The notes below the pieces were generated by a model. It was not told the origin of the DNA. It saw only the letters and a program-made list of their open reading frames with translations, and searched no databases. A DNA stretch of 64,000 nucleotides. Origin: Nocardioides humi. Its GTDB lineage: Bacteria; Actinomycetota; Actinomycetes; Propionibacteriales; Nocardioidaceae. Below, piece after piece: positions 392 through 34,818 of the stretch. Made by a program: the position numbers and the translations under genes. Position 1 is the first letter of the stretch. Every line of letters begins with the position of its first letter. The DNA lies in contig NZ_CP041146.1 of the NCBI RefSeq assembly GCF_006494775.1, positions 3,968,001 to 4,032,000 on the forward strand, written 5' to 3'.

Positions 392-396
<5 letters not shown>
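371..396. repeat. 13-bp tandem duplication over the rmlCD stop codon
   Basis: CACGCAGCTCAGC occurs twice back to back (371-383 and 384-396). The second copy contains the reverse-strand stop codon of rmlCD (392-394), so the duplicated copy lies just outside the gene. Confidence 0.8.
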
Positions 397-3771
<3,375 letters not shown>

Positions 3772-3945: not shown

Positions 3946-5508
3946 TCAGCGACCGCGCAGCCGGCCCAGCAGACCCCTGCGGGCGGGCGGCTCCTCGGCG
4001 GGGACCCGCAGGAGCAGCCCGTCCTGCGCGGAGTAGTCCAGGACGATCGGCCCGACCTGCGTGCCGGCGGGCAGGTCGCTGAACGCCCGCTTGATGCCGG
4101 TGCGCCCGTCCAGCTCGCACATCCCGAGCACCAGGTGGGCGCCCGGCGGCACCGGGCCGCCCATCGCGGCCGTCCGCGGGTCGAAGCGCGCGGTGAACCG
4201 GCCGGCCGGCTCGAGCGTGCCGTCCTCCTGCTCGACCAGATCGACCGCCGAGGTCGCCGGCAGCAGCCAGTTGACCCGGGTCGGTGCGTGCCGGATCGCG
4301 ACGTCGACGAAGGCGCCCGAGACGTCCGCGCTCGGCGTCAGCCCGCGCTCGGCGAGCAGACCGGCCAGCGGCTCGGGCAGGTCGCGCACGATGCTCCCGT
4401 CCGGCGTACGACGGGCGAACGGCTGCCCGGGGACCCGACTCCAGGCCACGGTGCCGGTCACGGTCACACCGCCGTCGCCGGCGTCCTCGACCGCCGTGAC
4501 GGTGAACTCCGGCTTCCGGTCGATCCCGTCGCGCAGGAAGTCGGCTGCCGCCTCGGCGTACCCGGCTCGGAACAGGGTGATCGCCACCCGGCTGCGCTCG
4601 GGGAGCAGCGCGTCCAGCTCGGGCGGCACGTACGCCGCCAGCATCCGCGCCACCTCGGCCCGCGCCTGCGCCACGGAGGCGTCCTCGGGGTCGGCGCGCT
4701 GGCCGAGCTGCGAGACCAGCCGCACGTGGACGTTCTGGGCGAGCAGCTCGTCGCGGATCCCCGGCGTCTCGACCTCCGCGATCAGCCGGAACAGCCTGTC
4801 GAGATAGGGCCAGTACTCCGGATCGCCGCTGTAGTCGAGCTTCGTGCCGTCGCTGGACGTCGAGTTGTTCTCGGCGGTCTTGCGCCAGTGGTAGAACGGC
4901 GTCGAGCTCAGCAGCGCCACCTGCGGCTCGCGCCGGATCACGCCGACGTGGAAGAACAGGTCCTCCCACAGGTGTCGCGGCGCCTCCGGGAACCGGATGT
5001 CGTGCTCCAGCAGGTACGTCCGCCGGTACAGCTTGTGCGGTGTCATCGGCAGCAGCCCGCGCAGCGGCTCGTCCCGGGCGTCCGGGCTGTCGTGGGTGTA
5101 GTGCGTGAGCCCCCACCGGGCGATCTGGGTCCGCACCTCCTTGCCGTTGACCACGTCGGCGCCCGCCTCGTCGCCCAGCGCGACGCCGGCGCGGAGCGCG
5201 TCGGGATACAGCTCGTCGTCGTGGTCCATGAAGAGCACGTAGCGCCCGCGCGCCTCCCGGACACCGACATTGCGCGGCCGGCTCGGCCACCCCGACGCCT
5301 CCAGGACGAACGCGCGGTAGTTGGCCCGCGGTGCCGCGATCCGCTCGATCCGCTGCGCGGTGTCGTCGGGCGAGCCGTCGTCGAGCAGCAGCACCTCGAT
5401 CTCGGCCTGCGGCAGGGTCTGCGCGTCCAGCGACGCGATCGCCCGGTCCAGCCCGGGCCCGGAGCGGTAGGTCGGGATCACGACGGACACCGCAGGAGCC
5501 TCGGCCAT
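3946..5508 (-). CDS. Family 2 glycosyltransferase
   Basis: Probably transfers a sugar during cell-surface polymer synthesis; donor and acceptor cannot be read from sequence. The N-terminal domain is classical GT-A fold: VSVVIPTYRS near residue 8, LLLDDGSPDD near 40, and FMDHDDELYPDAL near 93, where the DHD supplies the metal site. After about residue 280 comes a beta-rich C-terminal region of some 230 residues, ending in a basic RRGLLGRLRGR tail. It lies beside rmlA, so a rhamnosyltransferase is possible but unproven. A TAGACT box 6 nt before the ATG suggests leaderless transcription. Confidence 0.85.
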   Translation of the reverse strand: MAEAPAVSVVIPTYRSGPGLDRAIASLDAQTLPQAEIEVLLLDDGSPDDTAQRIERIAAPRANYRAFVLEASGWPSRPRNVGVREARGRYVLFMDHDDELYPDALRAGVALGDEAGADVVNGKEVRTQIARWGLTHYTHDSPDARDEPLRGLLPMTPHKLYRRTYLLEHDIRFPEAPRHLWEDLFFHVGVIRREPQVALLSSTPFYHWRKTAENNSTSSDGTKLDYSGDPEYWPYLDRLFRLIAEVETPGIRDELLAQNVHVRLVSQLGQRADPEDASVAQARAEVARMLAAYVPPELDALLPERSRVAITLFRAGYAEAAADFLRDGIDRKPEFTVTAVEDAGDGGVTVTGTVAWSRVPGQPFARRTPDGSIVRDLPEPLAGLLAERGLTPSADVSGAFVDVAIRHAPTRVNWLLPATSAVDLVEQEDGTLEPAGRFTARFDPRTAAMGGPVPPGAHLVLGMCELDGRTGIKRAFSDLPAGTQVGPIVLDYSAQDGLLLRVPAEEPPARRGLLGRLRGR

Positions 5509-9829: not shown

Positions 9830-12800
9830 TTGGCACTCGACCGCGCCCGCGCCCAGCAGGGCCTGATCCGGCTCGCCAAGGCAGGACCCGGCCGGCTGCG
9901 GGGGCCCGTGGGGCGGGCCACCCGGCGGTTCCGGGGGGAGTTCTCCGGGCCGCTGGTGACGGTGGTGCTGCCGGTCAGCGACGACGACACCACCCGGATC
10001 GGCACCTGCCTGGACTCGCTGAAGGTCCAGACCCACCGCAACCTCGAGGTCCTGGTCGTGCGCTTCGGGCGGCACGAGCGGGTCACCGCCACCGTGCGCG
10101 AGCACGCCGCCCAGGACTGGCGGATCAAGACCCGGATCCGGGTCGAGAGGTCCCTCGCGGCGGCCCGCAACACCGGCGTCGCGGCCGCGTCCGGCGAGCT
10201 GGTGGTCGTGGTCACCAACGGCGGCGACGACTTCGTCCACACCGGCATCGAGCGGCTGGTCGAGGCGCACCGACGCTCGGCGTCGCCCGTGGTCGTGGGC
10301 GCGATGCGCGAGCCCGACATCGCGGGCTGGATCCCCGACTCGGCGTACGACGCCGCCCACCACACGCCCGTGCGCGCCACCACGCTCGCCGCCACCCCCG
10401 TCGCCGTCACCGACCTCGGGCTGGGCAACAAGCTCTTCACCCGGACGTACTGGAAGCGGGCCGGCCTGCGGTTCACCGACGAGTTCCCCGACGGCGCCGA
10501 CGTCGCGCTCGGGCTGCTGGAGCGGGCGCCGGCGTTCGACCTGCTCACGGACTTCACCTACATCCCCACCGACCGGCGCGACGGCGTCCAGGTCGGCACC
10601 GTCCCCGACGTCCTCAGCGGGTTGCCCGACTGGATCGACCGCAACGACCACACCTGGCACCGGGTCGAGGCGCTGGGGCTGCCCGAGGTCCGGGAGTGGT
10701 TCCTGTGGGGCGTGCTCGACACGGCCGTGCAGCCGCTCATCGCCGACGTTGAGCGGGCCGACGGGCGCCAGTGGCAGACGCTGCGCGACCACGTCGCGAT
10801 GCTGCTCCAGGCGGCCGACGAGCACGTCTGGGCCCGCCTCAACGCCGAGGCGCGGGTGAAGCTGTGGCTGCTGCAGCACGATCACCGCAAGGCTCTCGAG
10901 GACTTCCTCGGCGCCCGGCTCTTCACCCGCGGCAACCGGCCCACCGAGGTCCGTGACGGCAAGGTCTGGGCGCTGCTGCCGCACCACGACGACACCCGGC
11001 TCGGCATCCCGCCGGAGCTGTTCGAGATGACCGCCGACGAGACCCGGTTCCGGGCGATGCTGCGCGAGGTCCGCTGGATCGACGCCACGACCCTCGAGCT
11101 GACCGTCTTCGCTGCCATCGACTTCGTCCACATGACCGGCCTCCCGGCGATCACCTGCGCCCTCGTCGACCGGGAGACCGGACAGCGCCTCCCGCTCGAG
11201 GTCCGTCGGTTCCGCGACGCCCGCGCCAACCAGGCGCTGCGGCGCCACCAGGACTTCTCCTGGGGCGCCTTCGACGCCATCGTCCCGGTCGCCGAGGTCG
11301 TCGCGGCCACCGCCGGGGGGACCGCCACCTGGGTCGTCGAGGTCGAGATCGACGTCGACGGCGTACGACGCTCCGGCGCCGTCCCGCTCATCGACGAGCA
11401 GGCCTCGGCCGGGTTCATCGGCCGCGACCACCTGGCGCCCCGCCCGGTCGCGGGCGCCGTGGTCGCGTTCAACCCGCGCTCGGACGTCGTCGGCCTGCGG
11501 GTCCGCCCCGATGCCGGACCCCGGCTGCGCTCGCTCGAGGTCGACGGCCGTACCGTCGCCGGCGTCCTCGACCAGCCGCCCGGCGGCACGACCCGGGTGA
11601 CCGGCGTACGCGTCACCCAGGGCACTCAGCAGGTCCGCGCCGAGATCAGCACGACCCCCGAGGGCGCGGCCTTCCGGCTGCAGCTGCCCGCGGCCTGGAC
11701 CGGCCAGCGCCGCTGGCAGGTGCGCGCGCTCACCGCCGACGGCCAGGAGGTCGTGCTCGGCTGGCCCGCCGCCGCCCCCCAGTGGCTCGGCGTCGGCACC
11801 GGTGAGGTCGTCGGCTCCCGCACCGCCAGCGGCGACACCGAGCTCTACGAGACGGCCGACACCCTCGTCGTCGACGACCTCGTCGTCGAGGGCCTGCGGC
11901 TCACCGTGGCCGGCCACTGGCTCGGCGTACCTCCCTCCGGCGATGTCCGCCTCGCCCTCCTCACGCAGGCCGGCGGCACCGAGGTCCTCACCACCGAGCT
12001 CGAGCCCGGCGACGCTCCCGGCGAGGTCCGGGCGAGCGTCGAGCTGACCGTCGACCGCTGGGGCCTCGGCGCGCGTCCCCTCGCCCCTGCTTGGCTCTGG
12101 CTCGCCGTGACCGGCAACGGCACGACCACCCGCGCGCTCCTCGGCGAGCGCGGCATCGACCGGCTGCACCACTTCATGGTCGGCACGGAGCACCCCGGCT
12201 ACTCCGCCCGCGTCGTGCAGGAGGGCCGGGTCGCCGGCGTCGAGCTGCTGCCGCCGGTGCCGGTCGAGGACCGGGTGCCCTACGGCCAGACCCGGCTCCA
12301 GGAGTGGTACGCCGACGGCGACATCCCGCTCGAGCCCGACGCCGTCTACTTCCAGTCCTATGTCGGCGCGTCCGCGACCGACAGCCAGCGCGCGCTCCAC
12401 GAGGAGCTGCGGCGTACCCGGCCCGAGCTCACGCTCTACTGGGGCGTCGCGTCGGCGGCGTCCTGGGTGCCCGAGGGCGGCGTGCCGGTCGTGATGACCA
12501 CCCGCGAGTGGTACCGGGTGATGGCCGCCGCCGGGCGACTGTGCATGAACATCGACCCCGAGCGCTGGTTCCGCAAGCGCCCCGGCCAGCGGCTGCTGCA
12601 GACCTTCCACGGCTACCCGTCGAAGTCGATGGGCATCCGGATGTGGGACGCCAAGCACTACCCGCCGCGCCGGATCGAGCTGGAGCTCGCCCGCACGTCG
12701 AAGCAGTGGGACCTGATCCTCACCCCCGAGCCGGACATGGACCAGTACTACCGGCGTGAGTACGCCTACGACGGCCCGATCCACAGCGAGGGCTACCCCC

Positions 12801-13420
12801 GCGACGACGCGCTCGTGGGCGATCGCGCCGCCGTCGTACGGGAGGACGTGCGGCGCCGCCTCGGCATCGAGGACCACCAGAGGGCGATCCTCTACGCCCC
12901 CACCTGGCGCGACGACCAGGCCACCAACTGGCGCGCGGCCGACGCCGTCCACCACCTCGACGTCGCCTCCGCCGCCCGCGAGCTCGGCCCCGACTACGTC
13001 CTGCTGCTGCGCGGCCACCGCTTCCACAACCCCGCCGGCGACGGCGCGGGGGCGACGCGCTTCCTCGACGTCACCGAGTACCCCGAGATCAACGACCTGA
13101 TCCTGGCCGCCGACGCCGCGGTGCTCGACTACTCCTCGCTGCGCTTCGACTTCGCCCTCACCCGGCGACCGATGGTGTTCCTGGTGCCCGACCTCGCGAC
13201 GTACGTCGGCGGCGTGCGCGGCTTCCTCTACGACTACGGCCCCACCGCCCCCGGCCCCCACGTCGACACCGCCGAGCAGGTCGTGGAGCTGCTGCGCGAC
13301 ATCGACGGCCTGCAGCGCAGGTACGCCGACGCCATGGAGGCCTTCCACCAGCGGTTCAACCGGTTCATGGACGGTCACGCCGCGGAACGGGTCGCGGCCG
13401 CCTTCTTCGGCGACGCCTGA
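9830..13420 (+). CDS. GT2 glycosyltransferase fused to CDP-glycerol/ribitol phosphotransferase (TagF-like)
   Basis: A 1196-residue probable wall teichoic acid polymerase. Residues 40-300 are a family 2 glycosyltransferase (VTVVLPVSDDD, SLAAARNTGVAAASGELVVV). Residues 360-800 are a long beta-rich linker. Residues 830-1190 form a TagB/TagF-type domain with TFHGYPSKSMG near 923, LYAPTWRDD near 1022, LLLRGHRFH near 1062 and LDYSSLRFDF near 1100, the polyol-phosphate transferase signatures. The TTG start follows a GGAAGGA site by 11 nt. Its neighbour CDP-ribitol synthase (18194) could supply its donor. The enzyme would act at the inner membrane face. Donor choice between CDP-glycerol and CDP-ribitol is inferred from context. 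Confidence 0.87.
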   Translation: MALDRARAQQGLIRLAKAGPGRLRGPVGRATRRFRGEFSGPLVTVVLPVSDDDTTRIGTCLDSLKVQTHRNLEVLVVRFGRHERVTATVREHAAQDWRIKTRIRVERSLAAARNTGVAAASGELVVVVTNGGDDFVHTGIERLVEAHRRSASPVVVGAMREPDIAGWIPDSAYDAAHHTPVRATTLAATPVAVTDLGLGNKLFTRTYWKRAGLRFTDEFPDGADVALGLLERAPAFDLLTDFTYIPTDRRDGVQVGTVPDVLSGLPDWIDRNDHTWHRVEALGLPEVREWFLWGVLDTAVQPLIADVERADGRQWQTLRDHVAMLLQAADEHVWARLNAEARVKLWLLQHDHRKALEDFLGARLFTRGNRPTEVRDGKVWALLPHHDDTRLGIPPELFEMTADETRFRAMLREVRWIDATTLELTVFAAIDFVHMTGLPAITCALVDRETGQRLPLEVRRFRDARANQALRRHQDFSWGAFDAIVPVAEVVAATAGGTATWVVEVEIDVDGVRRSGAVPLIDEQASAGFIGRDHLAPRPVAGAVVAFNPRSDVVGLRVRPDAGPRLRSLEVDGRTVAGVLDQPPGGTTRVTGVRVTQGTQQVRAEISTTPEGAAFRLQLPAAWTGQRRWQVRALTADGQEVVLGWPAAAPQWLGVGTGEVVGSRTASGDTELYETADTLVVDDLVVEGLRLTVAGHWLGVPPSGDVRLALLTQAGGTEVLTTELEPGDAPGEVRASVELTVDRWGLGARPLAPAWLWLAVTGNGTTTRALLGERGIDRLHHFMVGTEHPGYSARVVQEGRVAGVELLPPVPVEDRVPYGQTRLQEWYADGDIPLEPDAVYFQSYVGASATDSQRALHEELRRTRPELTLYWGVASAASWVPEGGVPVVMTTREWYRVMAAAGRLCMNIDPERWFRKRPGQRLLQTFHGYPSKSMGIRMWDAKHYPPRRIELELARTSKQWDLILTPEPDMDQYYRREYAYDGPIHSEGYPRDDALVGDRAAVVREDVRRRLGIEDHQRAILYAPTWRDDQATNWRAADAVHHLDVASAARELGPDYVLLLRGHRFHNPAGDGAGATRFLDVTEYPEINDLILAADAAVLDYSSLRFDFALTRRPMVFLVPDLATYVGGVRGFLYDYGPTAPGPHVDTAEQVVELLRDIDGLQRRYADAMEAFHQRFNRFMDGHAAERVAAAFFGDA

Positions 13421-13465
13421 GCGTCGTTGGGTGTGCGGGGCGGGGGCGGGCAGCCGGCCCCCGGC

Positions 13466-13653
13466 GCTGTAACACGTCGTTCGCTGCTCTACCAGCCGCA
13501 TGACGTCGGTGGAAGCGGTCTGTGCCGGGCTGCTGGAGCAGGTACGCGGCGGCTAGGTGGGCGAACGACGTGTTACAGCAGGCTCGCGGCGGCCAGAGCA
13601 GCGAACGACGTGTTACAGCGGGCAGAGGCTTGCCGCTTACAGCGGGCAGAGGC
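13466..13653. repeat. Cluster of inverted and direct repeats
   Basis: A 25-bp element at 13466-13490 recurs as its exact reverse complement at 13595-13619. A 19-bp core (GCGAACGACGTGTTACAGC) also occurs at 13561-13579, giving two direct copies and one inverted copy. A 17-bp direct repeat (TTACAGCGGGCAGAGGC) follows at 13613-13629 and 13637-13653. They fill the 296-bp gap 13421-13716 between the TagF fusion and the first sulfotransferase-like gene; no gene is evident there. Confidence 0.95.
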
Positions 13654-13674
13654 GTGCCGCCGAGCACCGGCATC

Positions 13675-13680
13675 TAGGAT
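13675..13680 (+). promoter_or_regulatory. -10 box of the sulfotransferase-like operon
   Basis: TAGGAT lies 36 nt before the ATG at 13717, with a GAAGGAG ribosome-binding site between. Confidence 0.5.
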
Positions 13681-13716
13681 CGGGGGTCCCGACCGACCGA
13701 AGGAGCTGCCGCAGCC

Positions 13717-14919
13717 ATGCGCCCAGTCGACCTGCCGGACGCCCTGCCGGACGGCTCGCGGTTCATCCACATCGGCCTGCCCAAGACCGGTACGACGGCC
13801 CTGCAGGGCGCGCTCGACCGCGCGCGGCCGCGGTTGGAGGAGCTCGGCGCCCACAACGTCGGCCGGGGCCGGCACGAGATGCGGGTCGGCCAGGTGGCGG
13901 CGGGCGGGCTCGCGGAGTTCTGGCAGGGCCGGTGGGAGGACCGGTGGCAGGCGCTCGCGGCGGAGTTCCGCGGCTCGGAGGCGCGGTGCACGTTCTGGTC
14001 GAGCGAGTCGCTGAGCCACGCGACCGGTGACCGGGTGCAGTACCTCGCCGACCAGCTCGGCGCCGACACCCACGTCGTGGTCACCCTCCGCCCGCTGGCG
14101 CCGCTCATGGTGTCCCAGTGGCAGCAGTGGCTGCGCCGCCGCGGCACGCAGTCGCTGGAGGAGTGGGCGGCCAACCAGTTCGCGGCGGTCACGGTCGAGG
14201 GCGAGGTGACCATCGACTACATCCGCTTCATGCCGTCGCTGCACCGGTTCAGCCTGCGCCGGATCATCGAGGAGTGGGGACCGGTCTTCGGCGAGGACCG
14301 GATCGTGCTCGTCGTCCCCGATCCGGTCGACCGCGACCGCACCTTCCGGGTCTTCGAGGCCCTGATGGGTGTCCCCGAGGTGCTCGAGGCCGTGCCCGAG
14401 GGCAACGCGTCGCTGCCCTACCCCGAGGCCGAGATGCTGCGGCAGTTCAACCGCGCCTACACCGACCACGGCGGCGACCATCCCACCTGGATGGAGGCGA
14501 TCGGCGTGCTCGCCCGCGTCCCGCTGCGCGACTACACCAACACGCTCACTCCCCACCCGATCCGCGCGCCGCGGTGGGTCGCCGAGCGCGCCAACGAGTA
14601 CGCCGCCGCCTGGAACGCCGCCGTCGAGGACTCCGGCGTCACCGTCGTCGGCGATCTCGCCGACCTGCTCGTCGACCCGGCCGGCTACGCCGAGGAGGTC
14701 GAGGTGCCCGCCACCGTCGACGTCGAGAGCGCCGGCCGGCTGATGGACGTCGCGTTCACGGCGGCGCTCCGGCACGCCGCCCGCCAGCACGACAGCGCCC
14801 CGGCGACGACGTCCGAGCTGACGACGCCCGACCTCACGACGCCCGACCTCACGACGTACGGCGGCCGCCAGCTGCTCGGCGAGCTCGGCCGCCGCGCCCG
14901 GCGACGGGTGAGCCGATGA
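13717..14919 (+). CDS. Sulfotransferase-like protein 1
   Basis: A 400-residue cytosolic protein with the PAPS-binding loop HIGLPKTGTTALQ at residues 18-30 and an Arg/Ser 3'-phosphate site (LRPLAPLMVSQWQQWL near 128-143), the two hallmarks of PAPS-dependent sulfotransferases. Substrate unknown. It starts a coupled set with the next two genes (ATGA overlaps), downstream of the TagF fusion, so a wall-polymer acceptor is plausible. Near the C-terminus a 15-bp in-frame tandem repeat encodes LTTPDLTTPDLTTYGG, followed by a basic tail (GRRARRRVSR) shared with its paralogue at 16980. Sulfated product is an inference. Confidence 0.72.
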   Translation: MRPVDLPDALPDGSRFIHIGLPKTGTTALQGALDRARPRLEELGAHNVGRGRHEMRVGQVAAGGLAEFWQGRWEDRWQALAAEFRGSEARCTFWSSESLSHATGDRVQYLADQLGADTHVVVTLRPLAPLMVSQWQQWLRRRGTQSLEEWAANQFAAVTVEGEVTIDYIRFMPSLHRFSLRRIIEEWGPVFGEDRIVLVVPDPVDRDRTFRVFEALMGVPEVLEAVPEGNASLPYPEAEMLRQFNRAYTDHGGDHPTWMEAIGVLARVPLRDYTNTLTPHPIRAPRWVAERANEYAAAWNAAVEDSGVTVVGDLADLLVDPAGYAEEVEVPATVDVESAGRLMDVAFTAALRHAARQHDSAPATTSELTTPDLTTPDLTTYGGRQLLGELGRRARRRVSR

Positions 14920-15758
14920 GCCTGCTCCAGGTCCCCGACGCCCGGGCGGGGATGAACGCCTTCGCGGTGCCCACCTGGTGGGCGTCCCTGGAGGACGAGC
15001 GGATCGCCCGCGACGACGACGAGCTGCCCGACGTCACGGTCGTCGACCTCGACCCGGCCGTGCTGCCGGCGGACCGCACGCTGCTCGTGGTCGGCGCCGT
15101 CGCGGAGCTGCTGCCCGAGCCCACCACCGACGCCCTCGCCGCCTGGGTGGGCGAGGTCCGTGCGCTCCACACCGCCGCCGCGCCGGTCCACCTCGCGGTC
15201 TCCCTCGACGAGGTGACCTCCCTCGAGCAGCTGCTCACCCTCGCCGCCGGCCGCCGCTGGCCCCCTTTCGACGCCGTCGCCGCGGCCACGCACACCGCCG
15301 CCGACCCGGTGCCGCCGCAGAGCGTCCCCGGCGGCCAGGAGACGGCTCGCGCCTACGCCGACGCGCTCGTCGCCCAGGTCGAGGTGCTGCTCCCGCCGGC
15401 CTGGCAGACCGCGACCGACGGCGCCTCGGACGCCGTCGCCTGCATCAGTCGCGCGCTCGACACCGACCCCGACGTGGGTCCCGCCGAGGCCCGGGTCCTG
15501 CGCGACGCCTGCCGGGCCGCGCTCGCCGGCCTGGAGGCCGACGGCGTGACGATCAGCGGCCCGCGCGACGCCCTGCTGTGGCCGGTCCCCGCCGAGCACG
15601 GGCTGGTCCCGATCGACGTCGCGGCCGACACGGCGCTGGAGGTGATGCTCGGCCAGCTCGAGCGGCCGGCCGATCTCGCGCCCGACCGGCCCGTCGTCGT
15701 ACCCCTCGATCGGGTCCCTGCCCGCGAGCTCGTGGCGCGGCTGAGGGGACCCCGATGA
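14916..15758 (+). CDS. Hypothetical protein within sulfotransferase-like operon
   Basis: A 280-residue soluble protein, acidic and rich in Ala, Asp and Val, with no signal peptide or membrane segment. I see alternating strand/helix segments (DVTVVDLDPAVLPADRTLLVVGAV, PVHLAVSLDEVTSLEQLLTLA) that would suit a Rossmann-like fold, but no catalytic motif. It overlaps its neighbours by 4 bp on each side, so it is translationally coupled to two sulfotransferase-like genes and probably shares their pathway. Function not recognised. Confidence 0.7.
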   Translation: MSLLQVPDARAGMNAFAVPTWWASLEDERIARDDDELPDVTVVDLDPAVLPADRTLLVVGAVAELLPEPTTDALAAWVGEVRALHTAAAPVHLAVSLDEVTSLEQLLTLAAGRRWPPFDAVAAATHTAADPVPPQSVPGGQETARAYADALVAQVEVLLPPAWQTATDGASDAVACISRALDTDPDVGPAEARVLRDACRAALAGLEADGVTISGPRDALLWPVPAEHGLVPIDVAADTALEVMLGQLERPADLAPDRPVVVPLDRVPARELVARLRGPR

Positions 15759-16969
15759 TCGAGCCGCTGCCCGACGGCACCACCCTGGTCCACATCGGGC
15801 CCTACAAGACCGGCACCACCGCCATGCAGGGCGCGCTGTGGGAGGCCCGCGACGCGCTCGCCGGGCACGGCGTCGCCTATCCCGGCGAGCTCGCCCACGA
15901 GATGAACGCCTCGATGGCCGTCGCGCTCGGCCGGGTCGACCCGGGCAAGGACATCGACGCCTTCCGGCAGCGCTGGTACGACCTGGTCGCCGCGCTGCAC
16001 GAGACGCGGCCCCGGATCGGGGTGCTGAGCAGCGAGGTCTACTGCGAGGCCACCGACGCCGGCGCGCGCACCGTCCTCGACGCGCTCGGGCCGCGCACGC
16101 ACGTCGTGATCACCGCGCGGCCGATCGTCCGGCTGCTCGGCTCCCAGTGGCAGCAGTACGGCCAGAACGTCCCCGTGCCGCCGTACGACGCGTGGCTGCG
16201 CGCGATCCTCGACCAGTTCGACGTCCCTGACGGTGGGACGGTCACGCCGTCCTTCTGGCAGCGGCACCGCCACGACCGGCTGGTCGAACGCTGGGTCGGC
16301 CTGGTGGGCGGCGACCGGGTCACCGTGATCGTGGTCGACGACCGCGACCACCGCGGCCTGCCCGCCGCGTTCGAGGCGCTGCTCGGCCTGCCCGAGGGGC
16401 TGCTGCGCCCACCGGCGGACAAGACCAACCGGTCGCTGACCCATCCCGAGGCAGCGCTGATGCAGGAGCTCGTCGACCGCACCTCGCAGGCGCCGTGGTC
16501 GAGCGCCGACCACGGGCGGTTCATCCGCTTCGGGGCGGCCCGCGGGCTGCAGGCGGCGCCGCCCGACCCCGACGCCGAGCGGCTGCTGACCCCCGGCTGG
16601 GCGATCGACCGGGCGCTCGCGGCCGGCGCCGGCATGGCCGAGCGGATCGCGGCCTCCGGCGCCCGGGTGATCGGCGACCTCGGCCTGCTCTCCGACCGCG
16701 CCCTCGCGCCCGCCGAGGGCGAGAACACCCCGGTCGGCGCCATCGACCCCGGCGCCGCGGCCGCCCTCGCCGTCGGGATCATCACCAAGCTCACCGGCGT
16801 GCACCCCCGTCCCGAGCACCGCGACCTCGCCGGACCGGTCGAGCGCGCCGCCTGGTCGCGGCACCGCGCCGTCGCGGAGGAGCTGGAGCGGCAGGCCCAG
16901 GACACGACGTCCCGCGCGGTGCTGCGCGAGCTCGGACGCCGCGGCCGGCGCCGGCTGCGCGGCTCGTAG
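15755..16969 (+). CDS. Sulfotransferase-like protein 2
   Basis: A 404-residue relative of the other sulfotransferase-like proteins here. The phosphate-binding loop is VHIGPYKTGTTAMQ (residues 12-25) and the second site is TARPIVRLLGSQWQQYG. A conserved FWQRHRHDRLVERWVGLVG block matches the genes at 19584 and 33706. It also has the late TPGWAIDRA helix and ends in a basic RRGRRRLRGS tail. It overlaps the hypothetical gene upstream by ATGA. It is the most divergent of the five copies, so it may use a different acceptor. Confidence 0.7.
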   Translation: MIEPLPDGTTLVHIGPYKTGTTAMQGALWEARDALAGHGVAYPGELAHEMNASMAVALGRVDPGKDIDAFRQRWYDLVAALHETRPRIGVLSSEVYCEATDAGARTVLDALGPRTHVVITARPIVRLLGSQWQQYGQNVPVPPYDAWLRAILDQFDVPDGGTVTPSFWQRHRHDRLVERWVGLVGGDRVTVIVVDDRDHRGLPAAFEALLGLPEGLLRPPADKTNRSLTHPEAALMQELVDRTSQAPWSSADHGRFIRFGAARGLQAAPPDPDAERLLTPGWAIDRALAAGAGMAERIAASGARVIGDLGLLSDRALAPAEGENTPVGAIDPGAAAALAVGIITKLTGVHPRPEHRDLAGPVERAAWSRHRAVAEELERQAQDTTSRAVLRELGRRGRRRLRGS

Positions 16970-16972
16970 GAT
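16967..16972 (+). promoter_or_regulatory. -10 box, leaderless sulfotransferase-like gene 3
   Basis: TAGGAT overlaps the stop codon of the previous gene and lies 7 nt before the ATG at 16980, so this gene may have its own leaderless promoter. Confidence 0.5.
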
Positions 16973-16979
16973 TCCTGCG

Positions 16980-18170
16980 ATGTCCACCTCGACCGGCCTG
17001 CCCGCAGCGCTGCCCGACGGCGCGCGACTGCTGCACATCGGGATGCCGAAGACCGGCACCACGGCGCTGCAGCACTCCCTGTGGGCCGCCCGGGAGGCGC
17101 TCGAGGCGCAGGGCGCGCACAACGTCTCCCGCCGCGCCCACGAGAAGAAGGTGGCGCTCACCGCGGCGGGCAGCGACCGCGACTACTGGGTGCCCCGCCC
17201 CGGCCGCTACCAGGAGCTCACCCAGGAGTTCCGCACCTCCGACGCGCGGGTGAGCTTCTGGTCGAGCGAGGCGCTGTCGTTGGCGTCGGTGGAGCGGATC
17301 CGCGGGCTGCGCGAGGAGCTCGGGCCGTCGTATCTCGTCTGCACGATCCGCGCCCTCGCGCCGCAGCTGGCCTCGCGGTGGCAGCAGGGGCTGCGCCGCG
17401 GCTCGGTCCATCCGCTGGAGGACTGGCTGCGCACCCGCTTCGCCGAGGAGCCGCGCGACGCCGACGTGCACGCCCCGCTCCGGTCCGGCCAGGCGCTGCG
17501 CCGGATCGACCCGCGCCGGATCATCGCGCAGTGGGGCAGCGTGTTCGGCGAGGACCGGATCGTCTTCGTCGTCCTCGACCCGACCGACCACCACTGGCTG
17601 CTGCGCTCCTTCGAGGCCCTGCTCGGCGTCGACGAGGTGCTGGAGCTCACCGCGTCGGGGAACATCTCGCTGCCGTTCCCCGAGGCCGAGATGCTGCGCC
17701 ACTGCGCCATCGCGTACGCCGAGCACGACGGCGACCCGGGCGCCTGGATGGCCACGGCCGGCGACCCCCGGGCCGTCAAGCTCCGCGGCGTGGTCCAGGC
17801 CGCGCCCAGGCACCCGACCCGGGTGCCGCGCTGGGCGGCCGAGCAGGCCAACGAGTACGTCGCCGACTGGGTCGAGGCGATCACCCGCTCCGACGCCACG
17901 CTCGTCGGCGACATCGCCCACCTGAGCGTCGACCCCGCGGCGTACCCCGAGCGGCTCGAGGTGCCGACCGCACTCGACGTCGCCTCCGCCGGCCGGATGA
18001 TGGACGCCTACTTCCGGGTCGGCCTGAAGCTGCCGCCGGCCCCCGCCCCGCCGCCCGCCCCGACACCCGCGCCGTCGTCCTCGCCGTCGTCGGCCCTCGC
18101 ATCGGCGAGCGGCTCCGCGATCCTGCAGGAGCTGCGCCGGCGGGCGCTCCGCCGAATCCGCTCTCGCTGA
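16980..18170 (+). CDS. Sulfotransferase-like protein 3
   Basis: A 396-residue paralogue of the protein at 13717, with LHIGMPKTGTTALQ at residues 18-31, GAHNVSRRAHE, SFWSSEALSLAS and IRALAPQLASRWQQGLRR as the Arg/Ser site. It shares FPEAEMLR and the WxxExANEYxA helix. The C-terminus has a Pro/Ala/Ser-rich linker (PAPAPPPAPTPAP) before a basic RRRALRRIRSR tail, which may dock on the membrane or on an anionic polymer. The pair 13717/16980 looks like an older tandem duplication split by two genes. Confidence 0.7.
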   Translation: MSTSTGLPAALPDGARLLHIGMPKTGTTALQHSLWAAREALEAQGAHNVSRRAHEKKVALTAAGSDRDYWVPRPGRYQELTQEFRTSDARVSFWSSEALSLASVERIRGLREELGPSYLVCTIRALAPQLASRWQQGLRRGSVHPLEDWLRTRFAEEPRDADVHAPLRSGQALRRIDPRRIIAQWGSVFGEDRIVFVVLDPTDHHWLLRSFEALLGVDEVLELTASGNISLPFPEAEMLRHCAIAYAEHDGDPGAWMATAGDPRAVKLRGVVQAAPRHPTRVPRWAAEQANEYVADWVEAITRSDATLVGDIAHLSVDPAAYPERLEVPTALDVASAGRMMDAYFRVGLKLPPAPAPPPAPTPAPSSSPSSALASASGSAILQELRRRALRRIRSR

Positions 18171-18193
18171 CCGCCCGTGGGAGACTGCGGCCC

Positions 18194-19600
18194 ATGACGA
18201 GGAATGTCGCCGTCCTGCTCGCCGGCGGTGTCGGAGCCCGGGTCGGACTGGACATCCCGAAGCAGCTCATCAAGGTCGCCGGGAAGACCCTGCTCGAGCA
18301 CACCCTGCTCGCGCTGCACGACCACCCCGACGTCCACGAGGTCGTCGTGATGATGACGCCCGGCCACACCGACGCGGTCCGCGACATCACCCGAGGGGGC
18401 GGGTATCCCAAGGTCGCCGCGATCCTCGAGGGCGGCGAGACCCGGAACGACACCACCCAGCGCGCCATCGACCACCTGGTCGCGACCGGCGACGCCGCGA
18501 CCACCCGGATCCTGCTGCACGACGCGGTCCGGCCGCTGGTGACGCCCCGGATCATCGGCGAGTGCTTCACCGCCCTCGACGGCTACCCGGCCGTCGACGT
18601 CGCCATCCCGTCGGCCGACACGATCATCGAGGTCGCCGCCGACGACACCATCCGCAGCATCCCGCCGCGCGCCTCGCTGCGCCGCGGCCAGACCCCGCAG
18701 GCGTTCCGCCTCGACGTCCTCGCCCGCGCCTACGAGATCGCCGCCGACGACCCGCACTTCACCGCCACCGACGACTGCAGCGTCGTGCTGAAGTACCTGC
18801 CGGACGAGCCGATCATCGTGGTCCACGGCGACGACCGGAACATGAAGGTCACCGAGCCGATCGACGTGTTCATCGCCGACAAGCTGTTCCAGCTCACCGG
18901 CATCGACCTGCCCCGCGCCAAGGACGACGCCGGCTACCGCGCGGCCCTGGAGGGCAGGACCATGGTGGTCTTCGGCGGCAGCTACGGCATCGGCGCCGAC
19001 ATCGCCGAGCTCGCCGAGTCGTACGGCGCCACGGTGCTCACCTTCAGCCGGTCGACCACCGACACCGACGTCGGCCGGCGCGCCGACGTCGCGGCCGCGG
19101 CGAAGGAGGCGGTCGCCAAGGCCGGCTCGATCGACTTCGTCGTCAACACCGCGGGTGTGCTGCCCCGCGGTGAGCTGATCGAGACCACCGAGGAGACGGT
19201 CTACGCCGCGACCGAGATCAACTACCTCGGCCCGATCTTCATCGCCCAGGAGTTCTACCCGCACCTCGCCGCCACACAGGGCGCGCTGCTGCTGTTCACC
19301 TCCAGCTCCTACACCCGCGGCCGCAGCGGCTACAGCCTCTACTCCTCGGCCAAGGCCGCCACGGTCAACCTCACCCAGGCGCTCGCCGACGAGTGGGCCG
19401 ACTCCGGCGTCCGGGTCAACTGCATCAACCCCGAGCGGACCGCCACCCCGATGCGCACCAAGGCCTTCGGCCAGGAGGCGCCCGGCACCCTGCTGGACTC
19501 CCAGACCGTCGCGCACACCTCCGTCGACGTGCTCATCTCCGACCAGTCGGGACACGTCTACGACGTCCGCAAGGACGACCCCTTCACGCTCGGCGACTGA
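18194..19600 (+). CDS. CDP-ribitol synthase: cytidylyltransferase fused to SDR reductase
   Basis: A 468-residue bifunctional enzyme of the TarI/TarJ kind. Residues 1-235 are an IspD-family cytidylyltransferase (AVLLAGGVGARVGLDIPKQLIKVAGKTLLEH, HDAVRPLV, RGQTPQAF, DDCSVV, KVTEP). Residues 256-468 are a short-chain dehydrogenase (GGSYGIGADIAE, NTAGVLPRGE, catalytic YxxxK in YSLYSSAKAA). The same domain order is known in Haemophilus capsule enzymes that reduce ribulose-5-phosphate and activate ribitol-5-phosphate with CTP. This would supply CDP-ribitol to the TagF-like enzyme at 9830. Its 3' end overlaps the convergent gene by 17 bp. Confidence 0.85.
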   Translation: MTRNVAVLLAGGVGARVGLDIPKQLIKVAGKTLLEHTLLALHDHPDVHEVVVMMTPGHTDAVRDITRGGGYPKVAAILEGGETRNDTTQRAIDHLVATGDAATTRILLHDAVRPLVTPRIIGECFTALDGYPAVDVAIPSADTIIEVAADDTIRSIPPRASLRRGQTPQAFRLDVLARAYEIAADDPHFTATDDCSVVLKYLPDEPIIVVHGDDRNMKVTEPIDVFIADKLFQLTGIDLPRAKDDAGYRAALEGRTMVVFGGSYGIGADIAELAESYGATVLTFSRSTTDTDVGRRADVAAAAKEAVAKAGSIDFVVNTAGVLPRGELIETTEETVYAATEINYLGPIFIAQEFYPHLAATQGALLLFTSSSYTRGRSGYSLYSSAKAATVNLTQALADEWADSGVRVNCINPERTATPMRTKAFGQEAPGTLLDSQTVAHTSVDVLISDQSGHVYDVRKDDPFTLGD

Positions 19601-20692
19601 ACCTGCGGCGCGGCGCCTGCTCCGGTTCCGGCGGGGGAGCCGTCGTCCGCGCGAGCCGCTCGGCCGCCAGGGCGAGCCCGGCGCCGAACCACGCCGCCAC
19701 CCCGGCATCGATCGCCGCCGGCGGCTCGGGAGTGGACGCGACCCCCGCGAGCCCGGTCGCCGCGATCGCGTCGAGGTCGCCGTACACGGGGACGCCGAGG
19801 GCCCGGATCGCCTCGGCCATCTCCCGCCCGATCGCGTTGGCGCGGGCGACCGCCCAGTCGGGCGTGACCAGCCCGGGCTCGCCGGGGGCGGGCTCGCGCT
19901 CCTTGACGTGGTCCTTGAGGTGGCGGAACAGCCGCACGTAGTGGTCCGGCCCCAGCCCGAGCGCCGCGAAGTCGACGTTGAACCGGCGCAGCAGCTCGGC
20001 CTCGTCGGCGGTCAGCGAGCGGTTCTCCCGCGCGTCCTGGCCGGCCAGGGTCTCGGGCCGCAGACCGAGCAGCCGCTCGAAGGTGTGGGGGAGGAACCGG
20101 TGGTCCGCCGAGTCCAGTACGACGACCACCACGCGGTCCGCGCCGACGTGCGCGGCCCAGCGCCGGACCAGCTCGTCGTGCCGGTGGCGGGTCCAGAACT
20201 CCCGCGGCTCCGGCGCGCTGGTGTCGTCGGCGAGCACCATGCGCAGCCAGTCGTCGTACCGGTGAGGGCTCTGCCGCTGCAGGCCCTGCTGGTACTGCGA
20301 CGACAGGATCCGGGCCAGCGGCCGCAGCGTGACCGCCACCCAGAGGTCGGCCACGCCCACGTCGGCGACCACCCGGGCGATCTGCTCGTCGGAGGCGTCG
20401 GAGAGGAACTCGCTGCTGAACACTCGCCGCTCGTCGCTGTCCGCGGTCAGGTCGCCGACGACGGCGCCCCACGCCCGCTCGGCCCGGACCGGGTCGCGCC
20501 CCGCGACCATCCGCCCGGTGACGTACCGTGCGGCCTTCGCGTCGTGCCGGCTCCGCGACACGTACCGCACGCCCTGTCCGGCCAGGTCCGCCCGCGCCTG
20601 GTGGAAGGCGCTCTGCAGCGCCGTCGTCCCGGTCTTGTGCGGCCCGACGTGCAGCAGCCGGGCCCCGGGGGCAGCGGGGACGGCGTCGACAT
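19584..20692 (-). CDS. Sulfotransferase-like protein 4, frameshifted near the N-terminus
   Basis: The C-terminal 328 residues are open from 20570 down to the stop at 19584 and closely match the gene at 33706 (SRSRHDAKAARYV, FSSEFLSDASDEQI, LRPLARILSSQYQQGLQ, WTRHRHDELVRRW). The ATG at 20692, with a TAGGGT box 7 nt upstream, encodes MSTPSPLPPG in another frame. The P-loop region (LLHVGPHKTGTTALQ) continues in the frame of the body but has no start codon after an in-frame TAG. Adding one base in the C5G4 run at 20663-20671 joins the frames as LPPGARLLHVGPHKTGTT. Either an assembly under-call or true inactivation. Confidence 0.75.
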
Positions 20693-33705: not shown

Positions 33706-34818
33706 TCAGCGGCGCAGGCGGGCGCGGATCCGGGACAGCAGGCTCCGGCCCGCCGACGGGGCGGACGGCCGCGGGGCGTCGAGGCGCTGGAGCCCCCGCG
33801 CCACGCCGATGCCGAGATGGGCGGCGAGCTCGGGGTCGACGCTCGTCGTGACGACGGTGGCGTCGGCGCCCGTCAGGGGGACGTCGGTCAGCTGGGCGAG
33901 ATCGCCGCGGACGTCGACGCCGAGCTCGCGGATGCCGTCGGCCATCTCCCGAGCCACCTCGTTGGCCCGGGCGATGGCCCAGTCGGGCGTGACGATCCGC
34001 GGCTCGTCCGGAGGCGGGACCCGGTCCTTGAGGTGGGCGCCGATGTCGATCAGCATCCGGGCGTGCGCCTCCGGGCGCAGCCCGAGCCGGCGGTACTGCG
34101 CGTTGAACCGGCGGACCACCTCCGCCTCCGCGGCCGTGAGCGAGCGGTTCTCCAGGGCCTCCTGCGACGTCAGCGTGCCCGCGCGCAGGCCGAGGAGGTC
34201 CTCGAAGGTGCGGGGCAGGAACTGCCGGTCCGACGGGTCGAGCACGACGACCACGACCCGGCTGCGCCCGATCCGCTCCGCCCACCGGCGGACCAGCGCG
34301 TCGTGCCGGTGCCGCAGCCAGAACTGGCGCGGCGCCGACCGCGGGTGGCCGGGGTCGAAGATCGAGCGCAGCCACTCGTCGTACTCGCGCCGCCCGCCGC
34401 TCTGCAGCCCCTGCTGGTACTGCGAGGACAGGATCCGGGCGAGCGGGCGCAGCGTGACCACCACCCACAGGTCCTCGCGCCCGACCCGCTCGATGATCTC
34501 GTCCATCTGCGCGTCCGTCGCGTCGGAGAGGAACTCGCTGCTGAACAGCCGGCGCTCCACCCCGGGCCCGCGCAGCCCGGCCACGATCCGCTCCCAGCGC
34601 TCCTCGGCCGCCCGGGCGTTCGAGCCGGTGACCAGGCGCCGGGTGACCCACCGCGCCGCGGACGCGTCGTGCCGGCTGCGGGAGAGATATCTCACGCCCT
34701 GGCCGTCCAGCTCGGCGCGGGCCTGGTGCAGCGCGCTCTGCAGCGCCGTGGTCCCGGTCTTGTGCGGGCCGACGTGCAGGATGCGTGCCCCCGGCGGAAG
34801 CGCGGCAGAAGTCGTCAC
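33706..34818 (-). CDS. Sulfotransferase-like protein 5
   Basis: An intact 370-residue homologue of the frameshifted gene at 19584. LHVGPHKTGTTALQ (residues 14-27) is the PAPS loop and LRPLARILSSQYQQGLQ the Arg/Ser 3'-phosphate site. Shared blocks are FSSEFLSDATD, WLRHRHDALVRRWAERIG, ENRSLTAAEAE and TPDWAIARANE. It ends in a basic LLSRIRARLRR tail. The GTG at 34818 has a TATCCT box 6 nt upstream; an upstream ATG at 34893 would add a His/Arg-rich extension that crosses this box, so I reject it. It lies about 13 kb from its paralogues, next to lsr2. Confidence 0.75.
   Translation of the reverse strand: MTTSAALPPGARILHVGPHKTGTTALQSALHQARAELDGQGVRYLSRSRHDASAARWVTRRLVTGSNARAAEERWERIVAGLRGPGVERRLFSSEFLSDATDAQMDEIIERVGREDLWVVVTLRPLARILSSQYQQGLQSGGRREYDEWLRSIFDPGHPRSAPRQFWLRHRHDALVRRWAERIGRSRVVVVVLDPSDRQFLPRTFEDLLGLRAGTLTSQEALENRSLTAAEAEVVRRFNAQYRRLGLRPEAHARMLIDIGAHLKDRVPPPDEPRIVTPDWAIARANEVAREMADGIRELGVDVRGDLAQLTDVPLTGADATVVTTSVDPELAAHLGIGVARGLQRLDAPRPSAPSAGRSLLSRIRARLRR

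Follow-up and report, generated by a model that had tools for sequence, protein, structure and literature searches.

A locus in the genome of Nocardioides humi probably directs the synthesis and sulfation of a teichoic-acid-like surface polymer that contains ribitol phosphate. The core of this locus lies at positions 9830 to 20692 of the stretch that we analysed (hereafter the window), which comprises 64,000 nucleotides (contig NZ_CP041146.1, positions 3,968,001 to 4,032,000) and is part of a 6.22 Mb single-contig genome. An earlier note had proposed a sulfated teichoic-acid-like polymer locus here from the sequence alone. We find this proposal supported as the best explanation of the domain content of the genes, the predicted fold of one sulfotransferase-like protein, the residues of the binding site for 3′-phosphoadenosine-5′-phosphosulfate (PAPS), the PAPS-synthesis genes of the genome and the linkage of the genes among relatives. 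The decorations usually described for teichoic acids are D-alanine and sugars, and sulfate as a dressing is familiar from animal heparan sulfate. If the proposal is true, a sulfated ribitol teichoic acid would give a bacterial surface polymer a strong, fixed negative charge, which would be likely to affect the binding of ions, the adsorption of phages and the proteins of the surface, and the locus would provide bacterial relatives of the heparan sulfotransferases, encoded by a small set of genes open to testing.

Candidate genes for a polyol-phosphate polymer and its sulfation

Genes were called with a simple codon-based caller, using the codon-position signal as coding evidence; coordinates are those of the window.

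g11, 9830-13420, plus strand: family 2 glycosyltransferase (GT2)/TagF fusion of 1196 aa, proposed polymerase for the incorporation of sugar and polyol phosphate
g12, 13717-14919, plus strand: sulfotransferase-like, PKTGTT, R125...S133
g13, 14916-15758, plus strand: unassigned fold, start and stop overlap g12 and g14
g14, 15755-16969, plus strand: sulfotransferase-like, YKTGTT, profile match 399 bits
g15, 16980-18170, plus strand: sulfotransferase-like, PKTGTT, profile match 463 bits
g16, 18194-19600, plus strand: IspD-type cytidylyltransferase and short-chain dehydrogenase/reductase (SDR) fusion, proposed CDP-ribitol synthase
g17, 19584-20692 (open frame 19584-20570), minus strand: sulfotransferase-like, carrying a frameshift upstream of the PAPS loop in the present assembly
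g28, 33706-34818, minus strand: fifth sulfotransferase-like gene, HKTGTT, about 13 kb beyond the locus as first noted
g4, 3946-5490, minus strand: TarS-like GT2, proposed polymer glycosyltransferase
g1-g3, 392-3771, g1 and g2 minus strand, g3 plus strand: rmlC/rmlD fusion, rmlB-like and rmlA-like
g11-g12 gap, 13421-13716, no strand: intergenic, with an 18-base repeat

The GT2/TagF fusion named in the earlier note is borne out, and the CDP-ribitol synthase that it named is a putative one, an IspD-SDR fusion. g11 matches PF00535 (GT2, 44.5 bits) and, at its C-terminus, PF04464 (TagF, 259.6 bits), and the top PDB match of its residues 829-1188 is TagF (E 6.9e-48), with weaker matches to TarL and Cps3D. 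This TagF is that of S. epidermidis according to PMC10299916. Scores of g11 against the NCBIfam TarF and TarL models were under the cut-off; judged by its sequence, it is a TagF/TarL-type polyol-phosphate transferase, an assignment that does not distinguish a preference for ribitol from one for glycerol. In g16, PF01128 (IspD-type) and PF00106 (short-chain dehydrogenase) are joined in one protein, whose top PDB match is ribitol-5-phosphate cytidylyltransferase 1 (E 1.5e-32), above the IspD proteins. g16 has both the cytidylyltransferase and the reductase domains for CDP-ribitol; because its score against the NCBIfam ribitol model (147.4 bits) does not reach the cut-off of 166, ribitol is its putative substrate. 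g4 scores 34.1 bits against PF22181 (TarS_linker, cut-off 27) and matches PDB entries 8bz4 (E 1.1e-55) and 5tz8 (E 1.1e-23), the latter of which we take to be S. aureus TarS. Jointly, the sequences of g11, g16 and g4 point to ribitol phosphate and are compatible with glycerol phosphate. A dTDP-rhamnose supply is possible from g1-g3; g1 matches TIGR01214 and TIGR01221, both below the model cut-offs, and the names of g2 and g3 were given by eye, with no family search behind them.

Four sulfotransferase-like genes had been noted in the locus; g12, g14 and g15 stand, with their coordinates, while g17 is not intact, and g28 had been missed. The PAPS-site residues that had been claimed for these proteins are present: the loop reads PKTGTT in g12 and g15, YKTGTT in g14 and HKTGTT in g28, all five open frames examined carry an R-x7-S-x2-Q motif, and both the PAPS-loop and the 3′-phosphate-site Arg/Ser residues are conserved across the family alignment. 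A 5′-phosphosulfate loop together with the Arg/Ser rule for the 3′-phosphate is presumably the signature of a PAPS site. Structure prediction had been suggested as a check, and the model of g12, the sole sulfotransferase modelled, has a sulfotransferase fold; this result covers g12 only. The rows that pair this model with heparan sulfate 3-O-sulfotransferase and N-deacetylase/N-sulfotransferase (NDST) domains have 12-16% sequence identity. Among named homologues, the top matches to g12 belong to Nocardioides and share 81-83% identity with it. No curated model matches the window members, and it is their motifs, homologues and fold that support the assignment as sulfotransferases; for g28, DUF5614 gave a single match below threshold, and a PHROGs search with g12 and g28 gave nothing useful. 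The catalytic base could not be placed, with E97 only a candidate. That the sulfotransferase-like genes are false open reading frames was set aside on the grounds of their codon-position signal and their conservation in the named loci described below.

In the pathway that we propose, g16 would reduce ribulose-5-phosphate and make CDP-ribitol. In the chain extension assigned to g11, polyol phosphate would be transferred by the TagF domain and a sugar by the GT2 domain. The TarS-like g4 may attach a sugar, possibly rhamnose, to the ribitol. Sulfate would be moved from PAPS onto hydroxyls of the polymer or its sugars by g12, g14 and g15, with g17 and g28 where intact, and g13 is a possible partner of g12 and g14; sulfation would take place in the cytoplasm, ahead of export.

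PAPS supply and conservation of the locus

The presence of PAPS-synthesis genes, which the earlier note had named as a check, holds for the N. humi genome. We find one adenosine 5′-phosphosulfate (APS) kinase domain, in a protein of 553 residues whose gene precedes one for TauE, and CysN and CysD genes, for the ATP sulfurylase, within about 7 kb of it; CysN and CysD were named from sequence, neighbourhood, and GTP_EFTU and PF01507 matches. A second PF01507 gene is CysH, carrying CC...CxxC and ECGIHS, which we take to mark APS reductases. With a CysH of the APS type, cysteine synthesis would not need PAPS, and the idea that PAPS is needed for cysteine alone is weakened accordingly. The CysN, CysD and APS kinase genes, the last fused to a low-molecular-weight phosphatase domain, adjoin a lower-GC region of the N. 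humi genome (L015, 7843-18687; about 4.33-4.34 Mb of G000) that carries WbsX, a second TagF and methyltransferase genes.

The locus is recognizable in seven named loci from Nocardioides or Pimelobacter, whose g12 orthologues have 65-84% identity; the carriers include Nocardioides daeguensis, N. albidus and Pimelobacter simplex. The order g11-g12-g13-g14 is kept in all seven, g15 is found in five and, within the stretches examined, g16 in six. The fol genes lie upstream in six of the seven and a DUF2520 gene (g18) downstream in every one, and the loci of relatives carry further sulfotransferase families (PF03567, PF13469).

We surveyed 147 sampled genomes of the genus, counting TagF matches of ≥190 bits as strong and sulfotransferases at ≥259 bits. 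Six partial synthase matches (E 9e-61 to 6e-75) and sulfotransferase rows below 259 bits are left out of the counts, and neighbour counts, both here and in the non-genus survey, are lower bounds. Strong TagF is found in 49 of the 147 genomes and a full synthase in 43, and in 39 of these 43 the synthase lies within 10 kb of a strong TagF. A sulfotransferase is within 10 kb of a strong TagF in at least 29 of the 49 genomes, all 29 of which also have the synthase within 10 kb. Among the matches listed, 29 of the 40 genomes with a synthase within 20 kb have a sulfotransferase there, compared to none of the nine without a synthase, at least one of which is uninformative (G031, with a contig of 3.7 kb). 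Two genomes counted as lacking a sulfotransferase (G105, G108) each do encode one, at a distance of about 23-25 kb from the strong TagF and next to another TagF that is weaker. On a quick tree of TagF domains, the synthase changes once and the sulfotransferase five times. Because the synthase changes only once, the genus counts are not independent, and we do not use the association of synthase and sulfotransferase (Fisher p 8e-5) as independent evidence. The linkage of TagF, synthase and sulfotransferase is old and mostly kept.

The spacing of the genes suggests that g12-g16 form one operon, because the g12/g13 and g13/g14 overlaps are 4 bases each and the g14/g15 and g15/g16 gaps only 10 and 23 bases; a promoter and terminator scan turned up no candidate. 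The hypothetical gene that had been described as coupled to the sulfotransferases is g13, with its overlaps on both sides, and it sits between two sulfotransferase genes in all seven named loci. It has 22 homologues besides itself, the named ones all from Nocardioides, and no match in Pfam, NCBIfam or PHROGs. Its model has a pLDDT of 66, with no confident structure past about residue 110, and yields no Foldseek match at E ≤0.001. In this assembly, g17 represents either a pseudogene or a sequencing error: its HKTGTT stretch is out of frame with the ATG at 20692, and no ATG, GTG or TTG occurs in the frame of the motif from the upstream stop onwards to the motif itself. Orthologues of g17 are intact in five of the seven named loci (L041, L042, L043, L045, L047; 367-379 residues) and were not found at the equivalent place in the other two (L044, L046). 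An 18-base sequence occurs three times, as two direct copies and one inverted copy, in the 296-base g11-g12 gap; the window has no further copy at ≤3 mismatches, and of the 65 loci compared, the other 63 lack any exact match of 16 bases. In the named relatives this gap is 5-9 bases in five loci, and 48 and 205 bases in the remaining two.

Evidence against the proposal and rival explanations

A number of results weigh against a sulfated teichoic-acid-like polymer. The TM-scores of the g12 model against 3rnl in Foldseek are modest (0.38/0.58), no Pfam or NCBIfam model matches the four intact members in the window or the g17 open frame at E ≤0.1, and g17 itself is broken. TagA/TarA (PF03808) has no match in the N. 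humi genome, and the locus contains no export or ligase gene, with none for export between g11 and g17. A single split of the TagF tree carries the synthase link, and 11 of the 40 genomes with TagF and synthase have no sulfotransferase within 20 kb among the matches listed. Six of the 11 family matches in the N. humi genome (one of the six a 42-bit fragment) lie outside the window, none of them near either TagF gene. Outside the genus we examined 14 loci, from 13 of 18 genomes with a match (in one, L061, the simple gene caller missed the sulfotransferase itself), and found TagF nearby in three (L056, L057, L060) and in none of the other 11.

The last two results, together, indicate that the family has other substrates too, and they favour the alternative that the window's sulfotransferases act on a different surface molecule, such as an exopolysaccharide, a glycolipid or a glycoprotein, and lie here only because surface genes tend to accumulate in the fol-panC interval. 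The polysaccharide-type region at 4.33 Mb, with its second TagF and WbsX beside CysN, CysD and the APS kinase, could be read in the same way. This alternative is unlikely in view of the position of the sulfotransferase genes, which are flanked by those for the polymerase and the CDP-ribitol synthase and some of which overlap at their ends, the g11-g14 order shared by all the named loci, and the finding that, among the matches listed, 51 of the 55 family members of ≥350 bits in the 147 genomes have a TagF (≥72 bits) or a full synthase no more than 20 kb away. Still less likely is it that the proteins are inactive, or are P-loop transferases working without PAPS. Such proteins would fit the want of a curated sulfotransferase match and the frameshifted copy, but a match to a curated model is no defining trait of the PAPS-dependent sulfotransferase superfamily, and the fold of the g12 model, the conserved PAPS-loop and Arg/Ser residues, the match of PF17784 to 15 of the 66 rows of the family alignment (E ≤0.01) and one genomic neighbourhood make this explanation very improbable. 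In that neighbourhood, from another family of the order (L059), a family member lies directly beside CysN, with CysD, APS-kinase and TauE genes after it.

A sub-question of the proposal that a ribitol-phosphate polymer is made and sulfated here is whether this polymer is linked to peptidoglycan. It could instead be capsule-like or secreted, as a CDP-ribitol synthase and a TagF-domain polymerase also make the capsule of Haemophilus influenzae type b (Hib) (PMC10299916), TagA is absent, and g11 weakly matches one TagF-like capsule polymerase in the PDB. Set against this are an actinobacterial host with five LCP-domain genes, all of them away from the locus, and the TarS-like g4, neither of which is decisive; we regard a capsule-like or secreted polymer as possible but rather doubtful.

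Precedents, pyruvylation and other settings of the family

The locus resembles the wall teichoic acid genes of S. aureus and B. subtilis W23 (TarI, TarJ, TarF/TarL, TarS) in its CDP-ribitol supply, TagF/TarL-type domain and TarS-like glycosyltransferase, but differs in its GT2-TagF and IspD-SDR fusions, in the sulfotransferases within it and in the lack of TagA in the genome. Like the Hib capsule locus (Bcs1, Bcs3), it has one protein for CDP-ribitol and one large multidomain TagF-like polymerase. Hib Bcs1 reduces ribulose-5-phosphate and then activates it with CTP; the partner domains of the Hib polymerase are a phosphoribosyl-pyrophosphate-using ribosyltransferase and a phosphatase, where g11 has a GT2, and the available text mentions no sulfation of the Hib capsule (PMC10299916). 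Unlike the heparan sulfate enzymes, to which they are related at low identity, the N. humi proteins are bacterial.

The nearest precedent found is the sulfated wall predicted for Pontimonas salivibrio, where PAPS-dependent sulfotransferases were likewise predicted from the genome to modify an actinobacterial cell wall (PMC6106888). There, the polymer is polyrhamnose, at least two teichoic-acid genes are missing, and the sulfotransferases are not linked to TagF or a CDP-ribitol synthase in the part of that article available. The capsule genes of Cobetia marina KMM 1449 similarly combine PAPS synthesis, sulfotransferase and dTDP-rhamnose genes, but belong to a marine bacterium whose capsule has ABC-transporter genes and a structure from nuclear magnetic resonance (NMR), with no TagF or CDP-ribitol in the available text (PMC11766843). 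In the open-access library searched we found no "sulfated teichoic acid", and none of the articles listed for teichoic acid together with sulfotransferase, PAPS, sulfated or Nocardioides was recognised as describing one; subscription chemistry was mostly outside this scope, so that a described sulfated wall polymer may exist.

Pyruvate is also a known teichoic acid decoration, and a pyruvylated ribitol teichoic acid is reported for Nocardiopsis metallicus (PMC6801904). The Cobetia polymer bears both sulfate and pyruvate, and its description cites a Nocardioides albus teichoic acid paper alongside NMR data for pyruvylated glucose (PMC11766843). Among the matches listed, seven of the 20 strong-TagF genomes without the sulfotransferase have a polysaccharide pyruvyl transferase at a distance of up to 30 kb, versus none of the 29 with it, and four of 20 versus none of 29 have one within 20 kb; the 30 kb limit was chosen after the rows had been inspected. 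Two of the seven (G001, G114) lack the synthase, and in G092 the pyruvyl transferase gene is directly 3′ of the synthase gene. On a quick tree with one TagF domain per genome (for G139, not the top-scoring one), this contrast comprises five changes and three supported independent pairs and is not significant; relatedness leaves few independent events. The chances seem about even that Nocardioides and close kin share a fol-panC ribitol teichoic-acid locus with an exchangeable acid-decoration cassette, conferring heparan-sulfotransferase-like sulfation in most lineages and pyruvylation in some others, and thus a genus-wide class of sulfated ribitol teichoic acids.

Members of the sulfotransferase family are also seen in other settings. 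Elsewhere in the N. humi genome, a separate surface-modification cluster (L018, 7067-11935) has two family genes together with a GT2 gene and a LicD/methyltransferase-type gene. In another family of the order, four genomes (L048-L051) have a lone family member beside a gene for a protein of about 600 residues with hexapeptide repeats (Pfam was run for L048 only) and no TagF within the 20 kb examined, a setting which indicates that the family has further roles.
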